Shown piece by piece: positions 7 through 59,827 of a stretch of 64,000 nucleotides of DNA. The DNA is from Catellatospora methionotrophica (lineage in GTDB: Bacteria; Actinomycetota; Actinomycetes; Mycobacteriales; Micromonosporaceae), in contig NZ_JAAOTJ010000012.1 of assembly GCF_011297335.1 (NCBI RefSeq), positions 1-64,000 of the forward strand, read 5' to 3'. The notes beneath the pieces are model-generated. The model saw only the letters and a list, made by a program, of their open reading frames with translations. It had not been told where the DNA came from and searched no databases. Made by a program: the position numbers and the translations under genes. Position 1 is the stretch's first letter. Each line of letters opens with the position of its first letter.

Positions 7-125
7 GTTACGGCGGTCATGGCGGAGGGGAAACGCCCGGTAACATTCCGAACCCGGAAGCTAAGCCCTCCAGCGCCGATGGTACTGCAACGGGGACGTT
101 GTGGGAGAGTAGGACACCGCCGGAC
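7..125 (+). rRNA. rrf: 5S ribosomal RNA
   Basis: The stretch has the conserved actinobacterial 5S core: a GGGAAACGCCCGG segment, the CCGAACCCGGAAGCTAAG loop, and the 3' GGGAGAGTAGGACACCGCC, with 5' and 3' ends that pair as helix I. Length is about 119 nt, normal for 5S. It is presumably the last gene of a 16S-23S-5S operon whose other genes lie left of the window. Ends are placed by helix pairing and may be off by a few bases. Confidence 0.95.
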
Positions 126-218: not shown

Positions 219-237
219 CGTGCCCGCGCAACGGCGA

Positions 238-300
238 TGATCGCTGTTTCGGGTCAGAAGGTGGGGTCCGGACCCAGGTTTTGACCCGAAACAGCGATCA
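238..300 (-). repeat. 63-bp palindromic repeat, copy 1
   Basis: Perfect 19-bp inverted arms, TGATCGCTGTTTCGGGTCA at 238-256 and its complement at 282-300, around a 25-nt centre that holds a smaller palindrome (264-275). Its reverse complement matches the copy at 11234-11296 at 49 of 63 positions by eye, without gaps. It lies between the rRNA terminator and the ligase stop codon (315). No open frame is apparent inside; a non-coding hairpin or non-autonomous repeat is most likely. Confidence 0.8.
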
Positions 301-314
301 AGGCAGGTGGACGG

Positions 315-2459
315 TCATGCGGCGGGCTGGGTCACGCGCGCGACGGTGTGGAGGATGGTCGTGGCGGTGTCGTGGTCGCCGGTGCGGTGCGCGGTGAGCA
401 GCTGGGCGAACTTGTCGGCGTCGAGGATCGGCAGCCCGAGATCGGCGGCCTTGGTGGCCTTGGAGCCGGCGCCGTCGCCGACGACGACGAAGTCGGTCTT
501 CGCCGACACCGAGCCCGAGGACTTGCCGCCCAGTTCCTCGACAGCCTCGTTGCCCTGGTTGCGGGTCAGGCCAGGCACGGAACCGGTGACCACCACGGTC
601 ATCGGTGTCCCGTCCGGGCGGCGCAGCGGCAACCCCGAGCCTGCCGCGCTGTCGGGTGCGGCGTTCACGGCCGGGCCGGTGGGTTCGGTCATGTTGACGC
701 CGTGCCCGGCGAGCTTGGCGATCAGCGGTGCGACCTCGGCGAGTTCGGCGATGATGACGGCGGCCCGTTCGCTGCCGATGCCGTCGACCTGCTCCCATTC
801 GGCCGGGGTCGCGGCGAGGATCGCGTCCATGGTGCCGAAGTGGCGGGCGATGCGGCGCGACAGGGTGCGGCCGGTCATGCGGATGCCGAGGCCGGTCAGC
901 ACCCGGGACAGCGGCCGGGCCTTGGTCGCGGCGATGCTGCCGACGAGGTTCGTCGCCGACACGGTGCCGAGCCGGTCCATCGCGGCCAGGGTGGGCACGT
1001 CGAGGGCGTACAGGTCGGCGGCGTCGGTGATGTGGCCGGTCGCGAGCAGCGCGTCGAGGATCTTCTCGCCGAGCCCTTCGATGTCCATCGCGTCGCGGCT
1101 GGTGTAGTACAGCAGGGTGGCCTTCTCGCCGCAGGCGCGGCCGCGGGCGCAGCGCCACCGCAGGTTGCCGCGGTCGATGTCGCCGCCGCAGCGCGGGCAC
1201 TGCACGGGAGGGCTGTACGGCTCGGCGTCGACGGGCCGGGCCTCGTGCACGGCACCGGTGATCTCCGGGATGACGTCGCCGGCGCGGCGCACGTGCACCG
1301 TGTCACCGGCCCGGACGTCGCGCCGCTCCAGGTCGGTGAAGTTGTGCAGGGTCGCGGAGGTGACCACGACACCGCCGACCTGGACCGGTTCGAGAACGGC
1401 GACGGGGGTGATGACGCCGGTGCGCCCGACCTGCACGTCGATGCGGAGCAGCTTCGTGGTGCGGGTGTCGGCGGGGAACTTGTAGGCGGTGCCCCAGCGC
1501 GGCGCGCGGGTCGAGAAACCGGCCTTGGCCTGGTCGGCGGTGAGGTCGGCTTTGACGACGACGCCGTCGATGCCGAAGCCGAGCTCGCCACGGCGGGCCC
1601 CGAGGGCGGCGACGGCGGCGGTGACCTCGTCGATGTCGGTGCACACGGTGAGCCCGGCGGACGACTGGGCGGTGGTGGCCACGCCGAGGGTGCCCAGGTA
1701 GGCGATCGAAGCGGAGTGGCTGTGGGCGTGCTCGTCGGGCAGTCCGTGGGCGGCGTACGCCATGAAGGACAGCGGGACGTCATAGACCCGCTGGGCCCGC
1801 AGTGATCCGGCGGCTGCCGAGCGCGGGTTGGCGAACACCGGCTCACCGTGCGCGAGCCGCAGGTCGCAGCCCTTGGCGAAGTCGGCGTCGGTCATGTAGA
1901 CCTCGCCGCGCACCTCGATGGTCACCGGCGCGGACAGCCGTGCGGGCAGGCCGGCGACGAGGCGGGCCTGGCTGGTGACGTCCTCGCCGGTGTGGCCGTC
2001 GCCGCGGGTGGCGATCAGCACGAGCCTGCCCTCGGCATACCGGGCGGCGATGGCCAGGCCGTCGATCTTCGGTTCGACGGAGTAGCTGGTCGCGGGGTGA
2101 CCGAGGGCCTTGTCGAGCTTGGCCGCCCAGTCGTGCAGGCCTTCGCTGTTGAAGACGTTGCCGATGCTGAGCATGGGGGTGCTGTGCTCGATGTCGCCGC
2201 CGGGGGTGCCGACGACGGCGGTCGGGGAGTCGGCGACCCGCCAGGCGGGGTGTTCGCGCTCGCTGGCCGTGATCCGGGCGTACAGCGCGTCGTAGTCGGC
2301 GTCGTCGATGCTCTGCTCACCGGCGTAGTACGCGGCAGCGGCGCGGCGGGCCTGCGCGACGGCCGCCTCGTAGTCGTCGCGGCTGGTGTGTGGCAGGGCG
2401 CGGGCCGGGTCGACGATCGGGGCGGTCGCGGTGCCGTCGGTGGTGCGGTCGTCGGACAT
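315..2459 (-). CDS. ligA: NAD-dependent DNA ligase, divergent LigA type
   Basis: Seals nicks in duplex DNA using NAD+. The 714-aa product has the family order: N-terminal Ia-like region, adenylation domain with the K-x-D-G lysine at about residue 131 (EPKIDGLAIAARY), the GRTGVITPVA motif, an OB fold, a zinc site (CPRCGG then CARGRACGEK), helix-hairpin-helix repeats with SRDAMDIEGLG, and a C-terminal BRCT domain. Start chosen at MSDDRTT, the only sensible start before the Ia region. Several usually strict motifs are changed: the zinc region is short and CxRG-like, and HPxxxTPDSPT reads HPAWRVADSPT. It may therefore be a second, accessory ligase rather than the housekeeping copy usually found beside gatCAB. 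It stands alone, divergent from the next gene. Confidence 0.9.
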   Translation of the reverse strand: MSDDRTTDGTATAPIVDPARALPHTSRDDYEAAVAQARRAAAAYYAGEQSIDDADYDALYARITASEREHPAWRVADSPTAVVGTPGGDIEHSTPMLSIGNVFNSEGLHDWAAKLDKALGHPATSYSVEPKIDGLAIAARYAEGRLVLIATRGDGHTGEDVTSQARLVAGLPARLSAPVTIEVRGEVYMTDADFAKGCDLRLAHGEPVFANPRSAAAGSLRAQRVYDVPLSFMAYAAHGLPDEHAHSHSASIAYLGTLGVATTAQSSAGLTVCTDIDEVTAAVAALGARRGELGFGIDGVVVKADLTADQAKAGFSTRAPRWGTAYKFPADTRTTKLLRIDVQVGRTGVITPVAVLEPVQVGGVVVTSATLHNFTDLERRDVRAGDTVHVRRAGDVIPEITGAVHEARPVDAEPYSPPVQCPRCGGDIDRGNLRWRCARGRACGEKATLLYYTSRDAMDIEGLGEKILDALLATGHITDAADLYALDVPTLAAMDRLGTVSATNLVGSIAATKARPLSRVLTGLGIRMTGRTLSRRIARHFGTMDAILAATPAEWEQVDGIGSERAAVIIAELAEVAPLIAKLAGHGVNMTEPTGPAVNAAPDSAAGSGLPLRRPDGTPMTVVVTGSVPGLTRNQGNEAVEELGGKSSGSVSAKTDFVVVGDGAGSKATKAADLGLPILDADKFAQLLTAHRTGDHDTATTILHTVARVTQPAA

Positions 2460-9985: not shown

Positions 9986-11143
9986 ATGCGCAGAGGCACC
10001 TCCGCCGCCGCGGCCGTCGCGGCGGCCGTCCTGACCGCCGTCGGCACCGGCGTCGTCACGGCACTCCCCTCGTACGCGGCCACCGGCTGCCGCGTCACGT
10101 ACACCGTCGCCAACCAGTGGCCGGGCGGCTTCGGCGCGTCCGTCGCCGTCACCAACCTCGGCGACCCGATCAGCAGCTGGACGCTCGTCTGGTCCTACGC
10201 GGGCGGCCAGCAGGTGACCCAGTACTGGAGCACCGCGCTGACCCAGAGCGGATCCCAGGTCACCGCCCGCAACGTGTCCTACAACGGCTCGCTGGCCACC
10301 GGCGCCAGCACCTCGTTCGGCTTCAACGGATCGTTCACCAGCAGCAACCCGGCACCGGCGAGCTTCACCCTCAACGGCGTCGCCTGCACCGGCGGCGTCT
10401 CCCACTCGCCGACCCCGACCCGGACGGCCGGGCCGTCCCCGTCGCCGTCGCGTTCGGTGACGCCGTCGCCGAGCAGCGGCACCCCGGGCGTGCCGTCCGA
10501 CGCGGTGTGGAGCGCGTCCGGCCAGTGGGACACCTGGGTCAACAACGGCTACACCGTGTACAACAACATCTGGGGCTCCGGGGCCGGTTCGCAGACGGTG
10601 TGGGCCCGCTCCGGCACCAACTGGGGAGTCATCGCCAACCATCCGCGCACGTCGGGCGTGAAGTCCTACCCGCACACGGTCAAGGGCTCGGTCAACCGCA
10701 CGGTCAGCTCGCTGTCGTCGATGACCAGCTCGTTCAACGTGAGCGTGCCCGGCAGTGGCGACTACTCCACGACATACGACATCTGGGCCAACAACTGGGC
10801 CTACGAGGTCATGCTGTGGCTGAACTGGAGCGGCGCGGTCGGGCCGATCGCGGACCAGTACGACGCCGACGGCGCGGTGCCCGCGTTCCGCAACGTCAGC
10901 CTGGGCGGGCACACCTGGAACATCTACCGGGGCTCCAACGGGGCCAACGCGGTGTTCTCGTTCCTGCGTACCAGCAACACCAACTCCGGCACCATCGACC
11001 TGCGCGCGATCATGAACTGGCTGCGCACCCAGGGCTGGTGGGGCGACGTGACCGTCGGCGAGGCCCAGTTCGGCTTCGAGATCAGCGGAACCGCCGGATC
11101 GTCGGCGTTCACGGACAACAGCTTCTCCATCGCGTGGAGCTGA
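9986..11143 (+). CDS. Secreted GH12 endoglucanase with N-terminal CBM2
   Basis: 385 aa. Signal peptide (about 1-31, ending SYAAT), a family 2 carbohydrate-binding module (32-135, cysteine-bounded, TNLGDPISSWTLVWSY), a Ser/Thr/Pro linker (about 138-170), then a GH12 beta-jelly-roll domain. GH12 signatures include VYNNIWG, YEVMLWLNW with the nucleophile Glu, and FGFEISG with the acid/base Glu. GH12 enzymes cut beta-1,4-glucan or xyloglucan. ATG 9986 has AGAAGGG 9 nt upstream and begins the signal peptide; longer frames do not. A strong hairpin follows the gene. Monocistronic. Confidence 0.93.
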   Translation: MRRGTSAAAAVAAAVLTAVGTGVVTALPSYAATGCRVTYTVANQWPGGFGASVAVTNLGDPISSWTLVWSYAGGQQVTQYWSTALTQSGSQVTARNVSYNGSLATGASTSFGFNGSFTSSNPAPASFTLNGVACTGGVSHSPTPTRTAGPSPSPSRSVTPSPSSGTPGVPSDAVWSASGQWDTWVNNGYTVYNNIWGSGAGSQTVWARSGTNWGVIANHPRTSGVKSYPHTVKGSVNRTVSSLSSMTSSFNVSVPGSGDYSTTYDIWANNWAYEVMLWLNWSGAVGPIADQYDADGAVPAFRNVSLGGHTWNIYRGSNGANAVFSFLRTSNTNSGTIDLRAIMNWLRTQGWWGDVTVGEAQFGFEISGTAGSSAFTDNSFSIAWS

Positions 11144-11185: not shown

Positions 11186-11233
11186 CCTCCGTCCTGGTGA
11201 GTACCCCGCCCTGCCTGGGTGCCGAGCCGCCGA

Positions 11234-11296
11234 TGATCGTCGTTTCTGGTCATGATCTGCGGTCACACGCCACTTTCTGACCCGAAACAGCGATCT
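11234..11296 (+). repeat. 63-bp palindromic repeat, copy 2
   Basis: Imperfect palindrome: TGATCGTCGTTTCTGGTCA pairs with TGACCCGAAACAGCGATCT at 15 of 19 positions. It aligns end to end with the reverse complements of copies 1 (49/63) and 3 (46/63), including the central GATCTGCGGT shared exactly with copy 3. Lies between the GH12 terminator and the next gene. Confidence 0.75.
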
Positions 11297-11405
11297 CCCC
11301 AGGCGCGCGGGCCACGCGGACGCGCCCGGCGGTGGTGGCGTCGGCGGAGCGTGAGACGGCTCGCACGGTCTTGTGGTCGGGGACGCACTTGGTGATGCTG
11401 GCCTG

Positions 11406-12622: not shown

Positions 12623-12635
12623 TCGATACCCCTTG

Positions 12636-12653
12636 TTCGGTCGGTCGACCGAA
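12636..12653. promoter_or_regulatory. TetR operator, site 1
   Basis: TTCGGTCGGTCGACCGAA, containing the 12-bp perfect palindrome TCGGTCGACCGA. Sits 14 bp from the regulator start codon. Identical to site 2. Confidence 0.75.
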
Positions 12654-12670
12654 TGTTAGCGTACCGCAGA

Positions 12671-12688
12671 TTCGGTCGGTCGACCGAA
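12671..12688. promoter_or_regulatory. TetR operator, site 2
   Basis: Second exact copy of the 18-bp site, 35 bp (about three helical turns) from site 1 and just before the ribosome site of the 12705 gene. Same-face spacing suggests cooperative binding. Confidence 0.75.
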
Positions 12689-12704
12689 CGAAGGGGAGGA
12701 TCCC

Positions 12705-39799: not shown

Positions 39800-42577
39800 A
39801 TGAGGTTTCGCGTACTCGGGCCGGTGGAGGTCAACGACGGGACGGCGTGGCTGTCGGCGGGTCCGGCCAAGGCGCGGGCCCTGCTGGCCGCGCTGCTGGT
39901 CGACGCCGACCGGATCGTCGGGGTCGACCAGCTCTCCGACCGGTTGTGGGGGCAGTCCCCGCCCCGCACGGCCGCCAACCAGATCCACGGCTACGTCGCC
40001 AGGCTGCGCCGCGCCCTGGCCGACGCCGACGGGCGGGTGCTGATGACCCGGCCGCCCGGCTACCGCCTCGCCGTCGCACCGGCCGATCTGGACGCCGACC
40101 TGTTCACCGCGGGTGCCGCGGCGGGCACGGCGGCGCTGCGCTCCGGTGACCCGGCGAGCGCGTCGACCCTGCTCACCCAGGCCCTCGCGCACTGGCGCGG
40201 CCGGGCGTACGCCGACGTGCCACCCGCCGCCGCGGTGGCCGCCGAGGCGGGTCGCCTGGAGGAGGAGCGGCTCGCCGCACTGGAGGCCCGCATCGACGCC
40301 GACCTGCTGTGCCACCGCCACCCCCAGCTCATCGGCGAGCTGACGCTGCTCGTCGAGGAGCACCCGTTCCGCGAACAGCTGTGGCACCACCAGATGCTGG
40401 CCCTGTACCGCTGCGGCAGGCAGGCCGACGCGCTCAACGCCTACCAGCGGCTGCGCACCCTGCTCGACGAGGAACTGGGGGTGGTTCCCAGCGCGCCGCT
40501 GCGCGAGCTGCACCAGCGGATCCTGTCCACCGACCCGGCCCTGGACGCGCCGTCGCCACCCGCGGTCGCGTTGGGGGCGGCTCCGCACCACCCGACGATC
40601 GTGCCACGGCAGCTGCCCGCCGCCTGCGGGGCGTTCGTCGGGCGGTCGGGGCAGCTGCGCGAACTCGACCTGCTCGCCGGGCGGCCGGGCGCGCTGGCGG
40701 TCATCAGCGGAACCGCCGGGGTCGGCAAGACCTCGCTGGCCGTGCACTGGGCCCACCGCAACGCCGACCGCTACCCCGACGGGCAGCTGTATGTGAACCT
40801 GCACGGGCACGATCCCGCGCGCGCCGCGACGAGCCCGGTCAGCGCGCTGCACGGACTCCTTGAGGCGCTGCTTCCCGCCGGTGAGCGCATACCCTTCGAG
40901 GAGCAGGCCAAAGCCGCCCTGTACCGCAGCCTCACCGTGGACCGGCGGCTGCTGGTCGTGCTCGACAACGCCCGTGACGCCGAGCAGGTGCGCCCGCTGC
41001 TGCCCGCGGCACCGGGCTGCCTCGTGATCGTCACCAGCCGGGACCAGATGCAGGGCCTGGTAGCGGGGGAGGCGGCGCACTCGCTGACCCTCGACGTCTT
41101 CTCCGCCGCCGACGCGCACCGGCTGCTCGTACACCGGCTGGGCCGGGACCGGATCGACGCCGAGCAGACCGCGGTGGACACGCTCATCGCCAGGTGTGCC
41201 GGGCTGCCGCTGGCGCTGGCGGTCGTCGTCGCACACGCGGCGACCTACCCCTCGTTCTCCCTCGCCGAGCTGGCCGCCGAACTCGACGGCGACGCCCGCC
41301 TGAACGCGCTCGACCGCGGCGACCTCGCCACCGACGTACGGGCCGCGTTCGCCTGCTCGATGCGCACCCTCAGCGAGGGCGCGGGCGAGCTGTTCCGCCG
41401 CCTGTCCCTGCATCCCGGCCCGGACATCTCCCTGGCGGCCGCCGCCGCGATCGCCGACGCGCCCCCGGCGGCGGCCCGTACGCTGCTCGACGAACTGACC
41501 CGCGCGCACCTCATCGAGCAGCACGCGCCGAGCCGCTTCACGTTCCACGACCTGCTGCGCGTCTACGCCCGCGAACTCCTGCACGAGCACGACACCCCGG
41601 CCGTGCGGCGCGCGGCCACGACCCGCTACCTCGACCACTACCTGGACACCGCGCTGCTCGGCGTCCGGCTGCTCGCGCCGAGGCGGCCCTGCCCGCTGCG
41701 GCGCGCGCCCGGCCGGCCCGAGGACCTGGCCGACGCGGCCAGGGCCCAGGCCTGGTTCGTCGTCGAGCACACCGTGCTGATGGCGGTGCAACAGGCGGCG
41801 GCCGTCGACGGCGCGGACACCCACACCTGGCAGCTCGCCTGGGCGCTGGCGACCTTCCAAGACCGGCAGGGGTTCTGGCACGACTGGATGGCAGCCCAGC
41901 AGCTCGGCGTTGCCGCCGCCGAGCACGGCGGCGACCCGGCCGCCCGCGCCCACAGCAGGCGGGGACTCGGCCGGGCGCTGGCCACCGTGGGCCGCCATGA
42001 CGACGCGATCGGCTGCCTCGAACAGGCGCTCGCCCTCCTGCACGACGAGCCCGCCCAGGAAGGCCAGATCCACCTGGACATCGCGCTCGCCCTGGAGACG
42101 GCCGGGCGTTCGGCGGAGGCGCTGGCGCGCGCCGAGCAGAGCGTGCCGCTGTTCGAGCGGGCCGGCGGCGGCCATGCCCTGGGCATCGCGCTCAACTGCA
42201 CGGGCTGGTATCACGCGCTGGCCGGCCACTACGACAGCTGCGTCGAGTACTGCCTGCGCGCGCTGGCGCTGCTGCACGACACCGACGACCGGCGCGGCCG
42301 CGCCGCGACCCACGACAGCCTCGGGTACGCGTACCAGCGGCTCGGCAGTTCCGGTCTCGCCGCCGACCACCTGCGGCGGGCAGTCGCGTTGTTCCAGGAG
42401 ACCGGCGACCGGCACGGGACCGCCGACGCCCTCGACCACCTGGGCGAATGCCTGGCCGCGGCAGGGGACCAGGCACAGGCCGAGCACGCGTGGCAGCAGT
42501 CGCTGGCCATATTCGAGTTCCTGGACCATCCCGGCGCGGTGGAGATCCGCGGCAAACTCCTGGCGCTCGCCCGCTGA
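39800..42577 (+). CDS. AfsR/SARP-family transcriptional regulator with NB-ARC and TPR domains
   Basis: 925 aa. OmpR-like winged helix (MRFRVLGPVEVNDG), BTAD domain to about 245 (DEELGVVPSAPLRELHQRIL), NB-ARC ATPase with P-loop GTAGVGKTS near residue 303 and LLVVLDNARDAEQVRPLLP, then TPR repeats from about 690. Same order and many identical stretches as the protein at 5698-8436, so the two are paralogues. ATG 39800 follows a G-rich ribosome site. No secondary-metabolite cluster adjoins. Confidence 0.9.
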   Translation: MRFRVLGPVEVNDGTAWLSAGPAKARALLAALLVDADRIVGVDQLSDRLWGQSPPRTAANQIHGYVARLRRALADADGRVLMTRPPGYRLAVAPADLDADLFTAGAAAGTAALRSGDPASASTLLTQALAHWRGRAYADVPPAAAVAAEAGRLEEERLAALEARIDADLLCHRHPQLIGELTLLVEEHPFREQLWHHQMLALYRCGRQADALNAYQRLRTLLDEELGVVPSAPLRELHQRILSTDPALDAPSPPAVALGAAPHHPTIVPRQLPAACGAFVGRSGQLRELDLLAGRPGALAVISGTAGVGKTSLAVHWAHRNADRYPDGQLYVNLHGHDPARAATSPVSALHGLLEALLPAGERIPFEEQAKAALYRSLTVDRRLLVVLDNARDAEQVRPLLPAAPGCLVIVTSRDQMQGLVAGEAAHSLTLDVFSAADAHRLLVHRLGRDRIDAEQTAVDTLIARCAGLPLALAVVVAHAATYPSFSLAELAAELDGDARLNALDRGDLATDVRAAFACSMRTLSEGAGELFRRLSLHPGPDISLAAAAAIADAPPAAARTLLDELTRAHLIEQHAPSRFTFHDLLRVYARELLHEHDTPAVRRAATTRYLDHYLDTALLGVRLLAPRRPCPLRRAPGRPEDLADAARAQAWFVVEHTVLMAVQQAAAVDGADTHTWQLAWALATFQDRQGFWHDWMAAQQLGVAAAEHGGDPAARAHSRRGLGRALATVGRHDDAIGCLEQALALLHDEPAQEGQIHLDIALALETAGRSAEALARAEQSVPLFERAGGGHALGIALNCTGWYHALAGHYDSCVEYCLRALALLHDTDDRRGRAATHDSLGYAYQRLGSSGLAADHLRRAVALFQETGDRHGTADALDHLGECLAAAGDQAQAEHAWQQSLAIFEFLDHPGAVEIRGKLLALAR

Positions 42578-57638: not shown

Positions 57639-57767
57639 CGGCCCGACGCTACACCGCACCGCCGACAACCCAGCGTCAAGCCAAAGCAGTCCCACGCCTG
57701 CCTGACCGCCAACACCACGCCCCCCGACGACCGAAGCGGCGGTGTGGTCCGAGCCCGCATCGGAGAA

Positions 57768-57830
57768 AGATCGCTGTTTGCGGTCGATTCCTCGGGTGTA
57801 ACCGCAGATCTTGACCGCAAACAGTGATCA
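57768..57830 (-). repeat. 63-bp palindromic repeat, copy 3
   Basis: Arms AGATCGCTGTTTGCGGTCGA and TTGACCGCAAACAGTGATCA pair with a few mismatches. Compared with copy 1, the CG at arm positions 13-14 is GC here, and the pairing bases 50-51 have changed to match. The reverse complement aligns with copy 2 at 46/63 positions, with GATCTGCGGT identical. It lies 3' of the xylanase gene. Confidence 0.75.
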
Positions 57831-57868
57831 AGCCTGGTGTGGGGAGCGCACGTGGATGCAGTGGGGAC

Positions 57869-57910: not shown

Positions 57911-59827
<1,917 letters not shown>

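Follow-up and report, generated by a model that had tools for sequence, protein, structure and literature searches.

F1, a REP-like intergenic palindrome of near-constant length at gene 3' ends in Catellatospora

Three palindromes in the window and their neighbours

The stretch of DNA considered here, hereafter the window, comprises the first 64,000 nucleotides of contig NZ_JAAOTJ010000012.1 of Catellatospora methionotrophica. At its left end, the 5S rRNA gene (9..125, + strand; Rfam RF00001) faces the convergent gene of the NAD-dependent DNA ligase, ligA (315..2459, - strand), and the spacer between the two holds copy 1 of a palindrome that is denoted F1 (236..302, no strand assigned, conserved unit at 237-301), about 13 nt from the ligA stop. 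Two further copies, likewise without a strand, are found in tandem contexts: copy 2 (11232..11298) lies 3' of a GH12/CBM2 gene (9986-11143, + strand), and copy 3 (57766..57832) lies 3' of a GH11/deacetylase/CBM2 gene (57911-59827, - strand). An earlier note on this DNA had placed three 63-bp elements at 238-300, 11234-11296 and 57768-57830, with perfect arms of 19 bp in copy 1; both the coordinates and the arms proved correct, and only the unit was drawn slightly short, conservation extending over about 65 bp, from column 2 to column 66 in alignment A1, which has 67 columns. The elements indeed align without gaps over their whole length, as had been claimed, but the accompanying remark that copies 1 and 3 have to be reversed says little: because the elements are palindromes, the orientation of the copies carries little meaning. 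Between copies 1 and 2, 83 nt in direct register are 71% identical, and 79 nt in inverted register are 76% identical; for copies 2 and 3, the inverted match covers 63 nt at 73% identity.

A weight matrix trained on 70 copies of F1, including the window's three, gives copies 1, 2 and 3 scores of 96, 84 and 78, respectively; the highest control score is -46 after shuffling of the window and -54 after its reversal. A 17-base half-site pattern with up to three mismatches matches the window 9 times against 1.2 expected, a count reached in 0 of 100 shuffles. When folded as RNA of the + strand, the three copies yield z-scores of -9.9, -4.7 and -8.7, respectively. The adjoining genes encode the 5S rRNA, ligA, the GH12 enzyme with CBM2, a glyoxalase-like protein, a protein without a Pfam match, and the GH11/deacetylase/CBM2 protein; the claim that no transposase is adjacent to any copy thus stands.

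Two other features of the window deserve mention. Between divergent genes, at 12633-12691, there is a palindrome, GTTCGGTCGGTCGACCGAA...TTCGGTCGGTCGACCGAAC, that belongs to this single locus and is kept in five relatives; it looks like a regulator's double operator. Inside the one predicted GH11/polysaccharide deacetylase/CBM2 gene, a 287-nt direct repeat with 89% identity (57918-58204 and 58848-59134) is probably a duplicated carbohydrate-binding module.

Architecture, copy number and taxonomic spread

With its single-base centre, F1 forms a palindrome of odd length, about 65 bp in all. Its half reads GATCGCTGTTT-nn-GGTC-nnnAnnTnnGGTn, in which GATC, GGTC and GGTC begin at intervals of 13 bp, in addition to an outer A(A/T) pair. 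When the spacer of the first, exact pattern was left free between 20 and 36, the 31 distinct sites listed in the C. methionotrophica genome showed a single length throughout. From anchor to anchor, F1 measures 61 bp in 70 of 70 copies from this genome and in 20 of 22 copies from other species, figures to be read with the fact that the ungapped matrix misses copies with indels: one match of 68 nt is listed in C. methionotrophica (C11:86020-86087), and copies with indels are present in three relatives (G003, G005 and G010).

The genome of C. methionotrophica (8.39 Mb, 56 contigs) contains 191 fixed-length F1 sites with at most three mismatches, and the reversed-pattern control finds 0. Model R1, which, like the weight matrix, derives mainly or wholly from copies of this genome, finds F1 in all 11 Catellatospora genomes, with at least 65-126 matches in each, both strands counted. 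Outside the genus, at E <= 1e-4, 28 of 30 genomes gave no match, and the other two gave 1 and 2 weak ones. The exact pattern, searched across 84,980 species with one genome each, occurs in 28 stretches, all of them from Catellatospora. The earlier note had suggested a count of copies in this genome and its relatives, and had named a lack of further copies, or of homologues, as the outcome that would speak against a family; neither came about, and the shared ancestry of the copies as a dispersed family is strongly supported by the 191 sites together with the homologues in every Catellatospora genome. An origin from phages or plasmids was considered and rejected, as no exact match was found in viral contigs and no match in plasmid and phage collections.

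In the complete genome G007, 65 of the 88 F1 sites among the matches listed lie in the dnaA-proximal half, 31 of them in the quarter nearest to dnaA, and 6 in the farthest quarter; this gradient may only follow the density of core genes. Contig C1 of C. methionotrophica, 1.64 Mb long, has neither a perfect half-site nor an F1 site among the matches listed for its first 1.28 Mb. Four pairs of F1 copies in G007 are separated by only about 94-115 bp (C1 50907/51012 and 8204140/8204255; C9 region 28765/28859 and 99923/100028).

Placement relative to genes

Using gene calls from a purpose-written script, 85 copies from C. methionotrophica were found to comprise 37 between convergent genes, 37 between tandem genes, 2 between divergent genes, 1 inside a predicted gene and 8 unclassified. 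F1 is, accordingly, a high-copy dispersed intergenic palindrome, with 74 of 77 classified copies in convergent or tandem spacers. The tandem copies keep to the end of the preceding gene: 34 of 37 are closer to the upstream stop, with a median of 43 nt separating them from that stop and of 161 nt from the following start. A set of 118 distinct copies from several species includes 43 convergent, 54 tandem and 4 divergent ones, 2 inside a predicted gene and 15 unclassified, and all four divergent copies represent one orthologous slot. The background of gene pairs at least 80 bp apart is made up of 84 convergent, 134 divergent and 325 tandem pairs.

This preference for gene 3' ends can be read in several ways. 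If F1 were bound as duplex DNA by a nucleoid-associated or chromosome-organising protein specific to the genus, which we hold to be improbable, the periodic GATC, GGTC and GGTC of each half and the conservation of sequence inside the arms would find a natural place, and so would the concentration of the listed G007 sites in the origin-proximal half; such a protein, however, does not need promoter-side avoidance or closeness to stop codons. Alternatively, F1 might be a selfish, non-autonomous palindrome of the REP/REPIN kind that was spread by some single-strand transposase, of the HUH type or other, in which case gene 3' ends would be the insertion sites that are tolerated. We consider such a selfish origin possible though unlikely.

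Intactness, age and mobility

Relics of F1 were sought in 956,741 bases of C. methionotrophica sequence, namely the window, 40 stretches selected by F1 hits and the F1-rich C9 region, a selection that inflates the frequency of F1 but not the absence of relics inside these stretches. There, 78 sites score above 45 and none between -30 and 45; between -45 and -30 there are 6 sites, as compared with 3 in the reversed control. Of half-sites, 156 lie within whole elements and 0 alone. At the same time, the copies are by no means alike: the mean pairwise identity of the 85 copies is 0.76, with a single pair identical at 64 or more of the 67 positions and 13 pairs at 61, so that, as judged from sequence, the F1 copies of this genome are not recent. 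Because an unconstrained insertion family that has diverged to this extent should show relics and truncated copies, we infer that purifying selection, or else continual correction, keeps F1 intact.

At 7 offsets of the element boundary, direct repeats of 2, 3, 4, 5, 6, 8 and 9 bp beside the 85 copies are not clearly above the control (3 against 1.4 in partner-swapped controls at 4 bp; 2 against 0.4 at 5 bp), which leaves target-site duplication without clear indication. The flanks show no GTAG or CGTC tag either: with both sides of the 85 copies pooled, no base rises above 0.58 at any of the 12 positions next to the element. Y1 transposases (PF01797), the search for which had been proposed in the earlier note in the form of a co-occurring RayT/transposase, are present in only 6 of the 11 Catellatospora genomes; five of the nine matching loci, inspected over about 3.3 kb each, contain no F1, and genome G006 combines the absence of any Y1 match with at least 126 listed F1 matches. 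A link of F1 to RAYTs was rejected on these grounds, Y1 being neither universal nor adjacent in the five loci. Likewise rejected was an active MITE or REPIN, for want of clear target duplications, tags, relics and recent copies. The non-autonomous element offered in that note is, as a currently active one, unsupported, and it is further opposed by the solitary near-identical pair and by the 6 of 88 listed G007 sites in the origin-distal quarter.

These observations weigh against the selfish reading, which nevertheless draws on a resemblance: dispersed multicopy families, their placement, paired changes in stems and the co-existence of several families are all REP-like as far as REPs are described in the main survey (PMC3733652). 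Moreover, the missing Y1 gene does not bar a REP-like origin, because the same survey describes a CGTC super-family of REPs that lacks association with a transposase.

Persistence and paired changes at orthologous places

The spacer between 5S rRNA and ligA holds a palindrome element in C. methionotrophica (G000), G002, G006 and G010; in G005, an element lies beside ligA at a contig end, and the elements of G005 and G010 contain small indels. The 5S side of this locus aligns well, whereas in G002 and G010 the alignment is poor from the element to ligA; in G006, the locus aligns throughout at 81%. In the G003 stretch inspected, 5S rRNA and ligA are not neighbours, and no element turned up there.

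A broader view is provided by the C9 region (113 kb in C. methionotrophica and 109-120 kb in five relatives), in which 78 gene spacers had anchors in each of the six genomes. At the 68 convergent or tandem spacers, palindromes of the same family (families F1-F8, described below, pooled) coincide 107 times, as compared with a mean of 17.9 and a maximum of 37 in the permutation control. Persistence is not universal: the F1 copies of C. methionotrophica at 40218 and 65078 of this region have no F1 counterpart at that place in G002, G003, G006 and G010, and at one spot that bears a palindrome in other genomes, the convergent stops of G010 are a mere 10 bp apart. In 46 orthologous pairs of F1, ungapped identity is 0.784 within the element, 0.422 in the adjoining 15+15 nt and 0.360 in random flank pairs; the ungapped count was used since gapped flank identity is uninformative (0.803 against 0.775 when shuffled).

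The orthologous copies differ in a characteristic manner. In the outer columns 2-27, 825 of 1037 initially paired cells are unchanged, 143 have changed on one side, 6 have changed on both sides without remaining complementary, and 63 have changed on both sides and are still complementary, as against 6.3 expected if the sides were independent, although the cells themselves are not independent inasmuch as genome pairs share sequences. One slot illustrates this trend, its arms reading CGGGTC/GACCCG, CGTGTC/GACACG or CGCGTC/GACGCG depending on the species. Among the 85 copies of C. methionotrophica, matched double changes are in clear excess at columns 2, 3, 10, 12, 15-17, 21 and 22. Both halves are conserved at the inner columns 28-33, but these 85 copies show no matched double changes there beyond what composition predicts, in keeping with a protein that reads duplex DNA; the comparison of orthologues, at odds with this result, reveals 9 paired changes against 1.4 expected in 193 cells, which counts against such a protein. 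Under the nucleoid-protein explanation, the covariation of the arms would stem from arm-to-arm copying of imperfect palindromes during replication and not from selection for folding, and arm covariation by itself does not separate an RNA hairpin from a DNA hairpin or from such copying. Our preferred reading, set out below, would have selection preserve the folding of F1, be it as a 3' hairpin of the RNA or as a DNA hairpin or cruciform.

Tests for RNA and terminators

The earlier note had listed a structured RNA among its options. This is possible to the extent that the arms covary, but there is no match to an Rfam family: above the gathering threshold, only the 5S rRNA was found in the window, and in seven loci of the C9 region none of the four Rfam matches is at an F1 site. 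These matches, near palindromes of that region, are two Actino-pnp elements (L097:55-112 and L112:7805-7863), a guanidine-III riboswitch (L097:17357-17416) and a borderline guanidine-II riboswitch (L096:8629-8674). On the sense strand of tandem copies, G-U outnumbers A-C by 51 to 33 (two-sided p 0.04); convergent copies taken in arbitrary orientation show the same skew, 46 to 25 (p 0.014). With the arbitrary-orientation control skewed as well, the G-U excess does not by itself show selection at the RNA level.

The strong hairpins between convergent genes, with z-scores of -4.7 to -9.9, could suggest ordinary bidirectional intrinsic terminators, each a hairpin with a U-tract, that resemble one another by chance. 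F1 stems, however, are not followed by a T-run (over the 12 positions next to the element, the frequency of T is 0.03-0.22), and, with a stem that lacks a U-tract, F1 was rejected as a canonical terminator. In addition, the long shared sequence, centre included, the fixed length and the species dialects described below go beyond what a terminator needs; in particular, the strict conservation of sequence inside the paired arms exceeds the needs of a plain terminator. Taken with these features, chance resemblance of ordinary terminators is very improbable. Ordinary-looking hairpin terminators do exist ahead of F1 at the 5S locus, and U-tract terminators were seldom detected in Catellatospora by the scan used. 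They occupy 8 of 96 convergent slots, namely 2 of 35 with F1, 3 of 36 with another palindrome and 3 of 25 with no palindrome; the idea that palindromes replace U-tract terminators was dropped, since no trade-off was seen, terminators showing no clear depletion in the slots that hold a palindrome. Here too, the C. methionotrophica stretches other than the window had been selected by F1 hits.

A species dialect at column 17/51

The pair at columns 17 and 51 is G-C in 72 of the 85 copies of C. methionotrophica, T-A in 6 and mixed in 7, a count that favours this genome's own dialect, given that many of the copies first came to light through patterns with an obligatory GGTC. In G007, the same pair is T-A in 34 of 34 copies, even though the search model came from C. 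methionotrophica. The contiguous C9 region, where the listing is small but free of the GGTC bias, gives 8 G-C pairs among 10 in C. methionotrophica, along with one T-A and one mixed pair, as against T-A in 12 of 12 in G007. Columns 15-16, variable in C. methionotrophica, are a nearly fixed CG in G007. As some orthologous places are common to both genomes, the change of dialect was coordinated over dispersed sites, and the sequences point to recognition in trans or to genome-wide conversion. Even so, identity is highest between orthologues (0.767), lower between copies of the same genome (0.709) and lowest between unrelated copies of different genomes (0.674).

Such a lock of the dialect would also be expected if F1 were bound by a nucleoid protein, and a selfish palindrome could acquire it through co-evolution with its transposase, as RAYTs and REPs are reported to co-evolve (PMC2817692; PMC8266576, as far as these sources go).

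Other palindrome families and the occupancy of slots

F1 is not alone. A motif-free search of the C9 region yielded seven further dispersed palindrome families, F2-F8, and among the REP-like intergenic palindromes of near-constant length seen in Catellatospora, F1 is the most frequent. Families F2 (AGACGTTGGCCTAT...), F3 (GCAACTCTTAAAGAGTCGCGGC...), F4 (GTTGATCATGAACTTATGG...) and F5-F8 are present in several Catellatospora species (loci L094-L133), largely occupy the same 3'-end niche as F1 and have near-constant lengths. Between anchors, the copies of C. methionotrophica measure 59 in F2 (21/21), 61 in F3 (20/22), 62 in F4 (4/4) and 48 in F8 (14/21); in other species, the prevailing lengths are 59 in F2 (17/20), 61 in F3 (10/10), 61 in F4 (21/21), 67 in F6 (10/11) and 48 in F8 (16/16). 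With a free spacer, the F4 pattern is found in 10 of 11 Catellatospora genomes, C. methionotrophica being the exception, and in 0 of 30 others.

In the C9 region of the six genomes, long palindromes are present in 50 of 68 convergent, 60 of 240 tandem and 5 of 76 divergent spacers. The corresponding numbers for the window region in five genomes are 4 of 29, 4 of 97 and 6 of 54, a regional difference which implies that a palindrome is not obligatory in convergent spacers. In six genomes of other genera, the numbers are 3 of 20, 6 of 60 and 0 of 25; this comparison covers 20-40 kb each from the 6 of 11 samples in which the gene caller left 10-30% as intergenic (samples G013, G014, G020, G023 and G024 were left out). 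Single slots that hold different families in different species provide clear examples of exchange. Family swapping above chance was rejected for convergent slots, where permutations gave 45.5 swaps as compared with the 22 observed, no more than the generally high occupancy of such slots predicts. For tandem slots, the 15 swaps observed stand against 9.2, and 97 of 3000 permutations reached 15.

Interpretation

Taken together, these data lead us to favour, tentatively and at somewhat less than even probability, the view that F1 is a REP-like palindrome of gene 3' ends, the folding of which is kept by selection, and which co-evolves with a putative trans-acting factor and punctuates transcription units. 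A factor encoded in the genome would recognise the palindrome by its sequence, and the most likely role of F1 would be to mark the places where converging or consecutive transcripts end. F1 might act in both directions, terminating or insulating transcription and/or protecting the 3' ends of RNA. The copies would have been scattered by some past copying process, of which no present activity was seen. What speaks against this reading is the lack of a U-tract, the G-U skew shared by the arbitrary-orientation control, the regional occupancy of spacers, the terminators that show no trade-off with palindromes and that precede F1 at the 5S locus, and an arm sequence conserved more strictly than a plain terminator would need.

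A more far-reaching scenario, which we regard as rather doubtful, would extend this view to a gene-end punctuation system of Catellatospora, in which several unrelated families of near-constant length each have a co-evolving trans-acting factor of their own, with switching of arms and replacement in slots; F1-F4 share about 61 bp between anchors in such a system, and F6 and F8 have lengths of their own. If this were true, a factor could bring about a switch of both arms in concert throughout the genome, as from G-C to T-A at column 17/51.

Comparison with known systems

We found no description of these palindromes in the literature, at the level of titles and abstract openings, and the word Actinobacteria is absent from the main text of both REP surveys (PMC3733652 and PMC2817692). 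Within what the first of these covers, REPs are high-copy intergenic palindromes of 20-40 bp, with several families per genome, and are described chiefly in Proteobacteria; in REP-rich genomes, they lie near the 3' ends of convergent or co-directional ORFs and have alternative complementary bases in their stems, and Table 1 there lists the CGTC super-family without an associated transposase gene (PMC3733652). The GTAG REPs are linked to RAYT/TnpAREP transposases.

F1 shares with REPs, as so described, its high copy number, its intergenic location at gene 3' ends, the multiplicity of families and the alternative complementary stem bases. It differs from them in size, with 61 bp from anchor to anchor and about 65 bp conserved, in the lack of a GTAG or CGTC tag and in that the 11 genomes do not all share a Y1 gene. 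Among the options of the earlier note, the REP-like site fits best by placement and structure, and falls short in size, tag and the presence of Y1 in 6 of 11 genomes only. By analogy, F1 would work most like REPs; it is not classed as a REP because size and tag do not agree and the genomes lack a shared Y1 gene, the last point weighing less since the CGTC super-family, according to the survey, also lacks a transposase association.

ERIC, Correia/NEMIS and SMAG are miniature hairpin elements, dispersed and palindromic, that are transcribed at gene ends. F1 is set apart from them, by this general description, in that it has no clear target duplication; nor has it a viral (exact), plasmid or phage match. 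With bidirectional intrinsic terminators, F1 shares a hairpin between convergent genes, but unlike them it has no U-tract, is of fixed length and carries a sequence common to unrelated loci.

The copies at orthologous places with paired changes in their arms, along with the switch of dialect, help to separate 'selfish' palindromes from 'maintained' ones, and the F1 dialects of C. methionotrophica and G007 offer concrete baits for finding the factor that would read them. In sum, F1 resembles an actinobacterial counterpart of REPs, about twice as long, devoid of the tag and of a universal Y1 gene, and likewise represented by several families.
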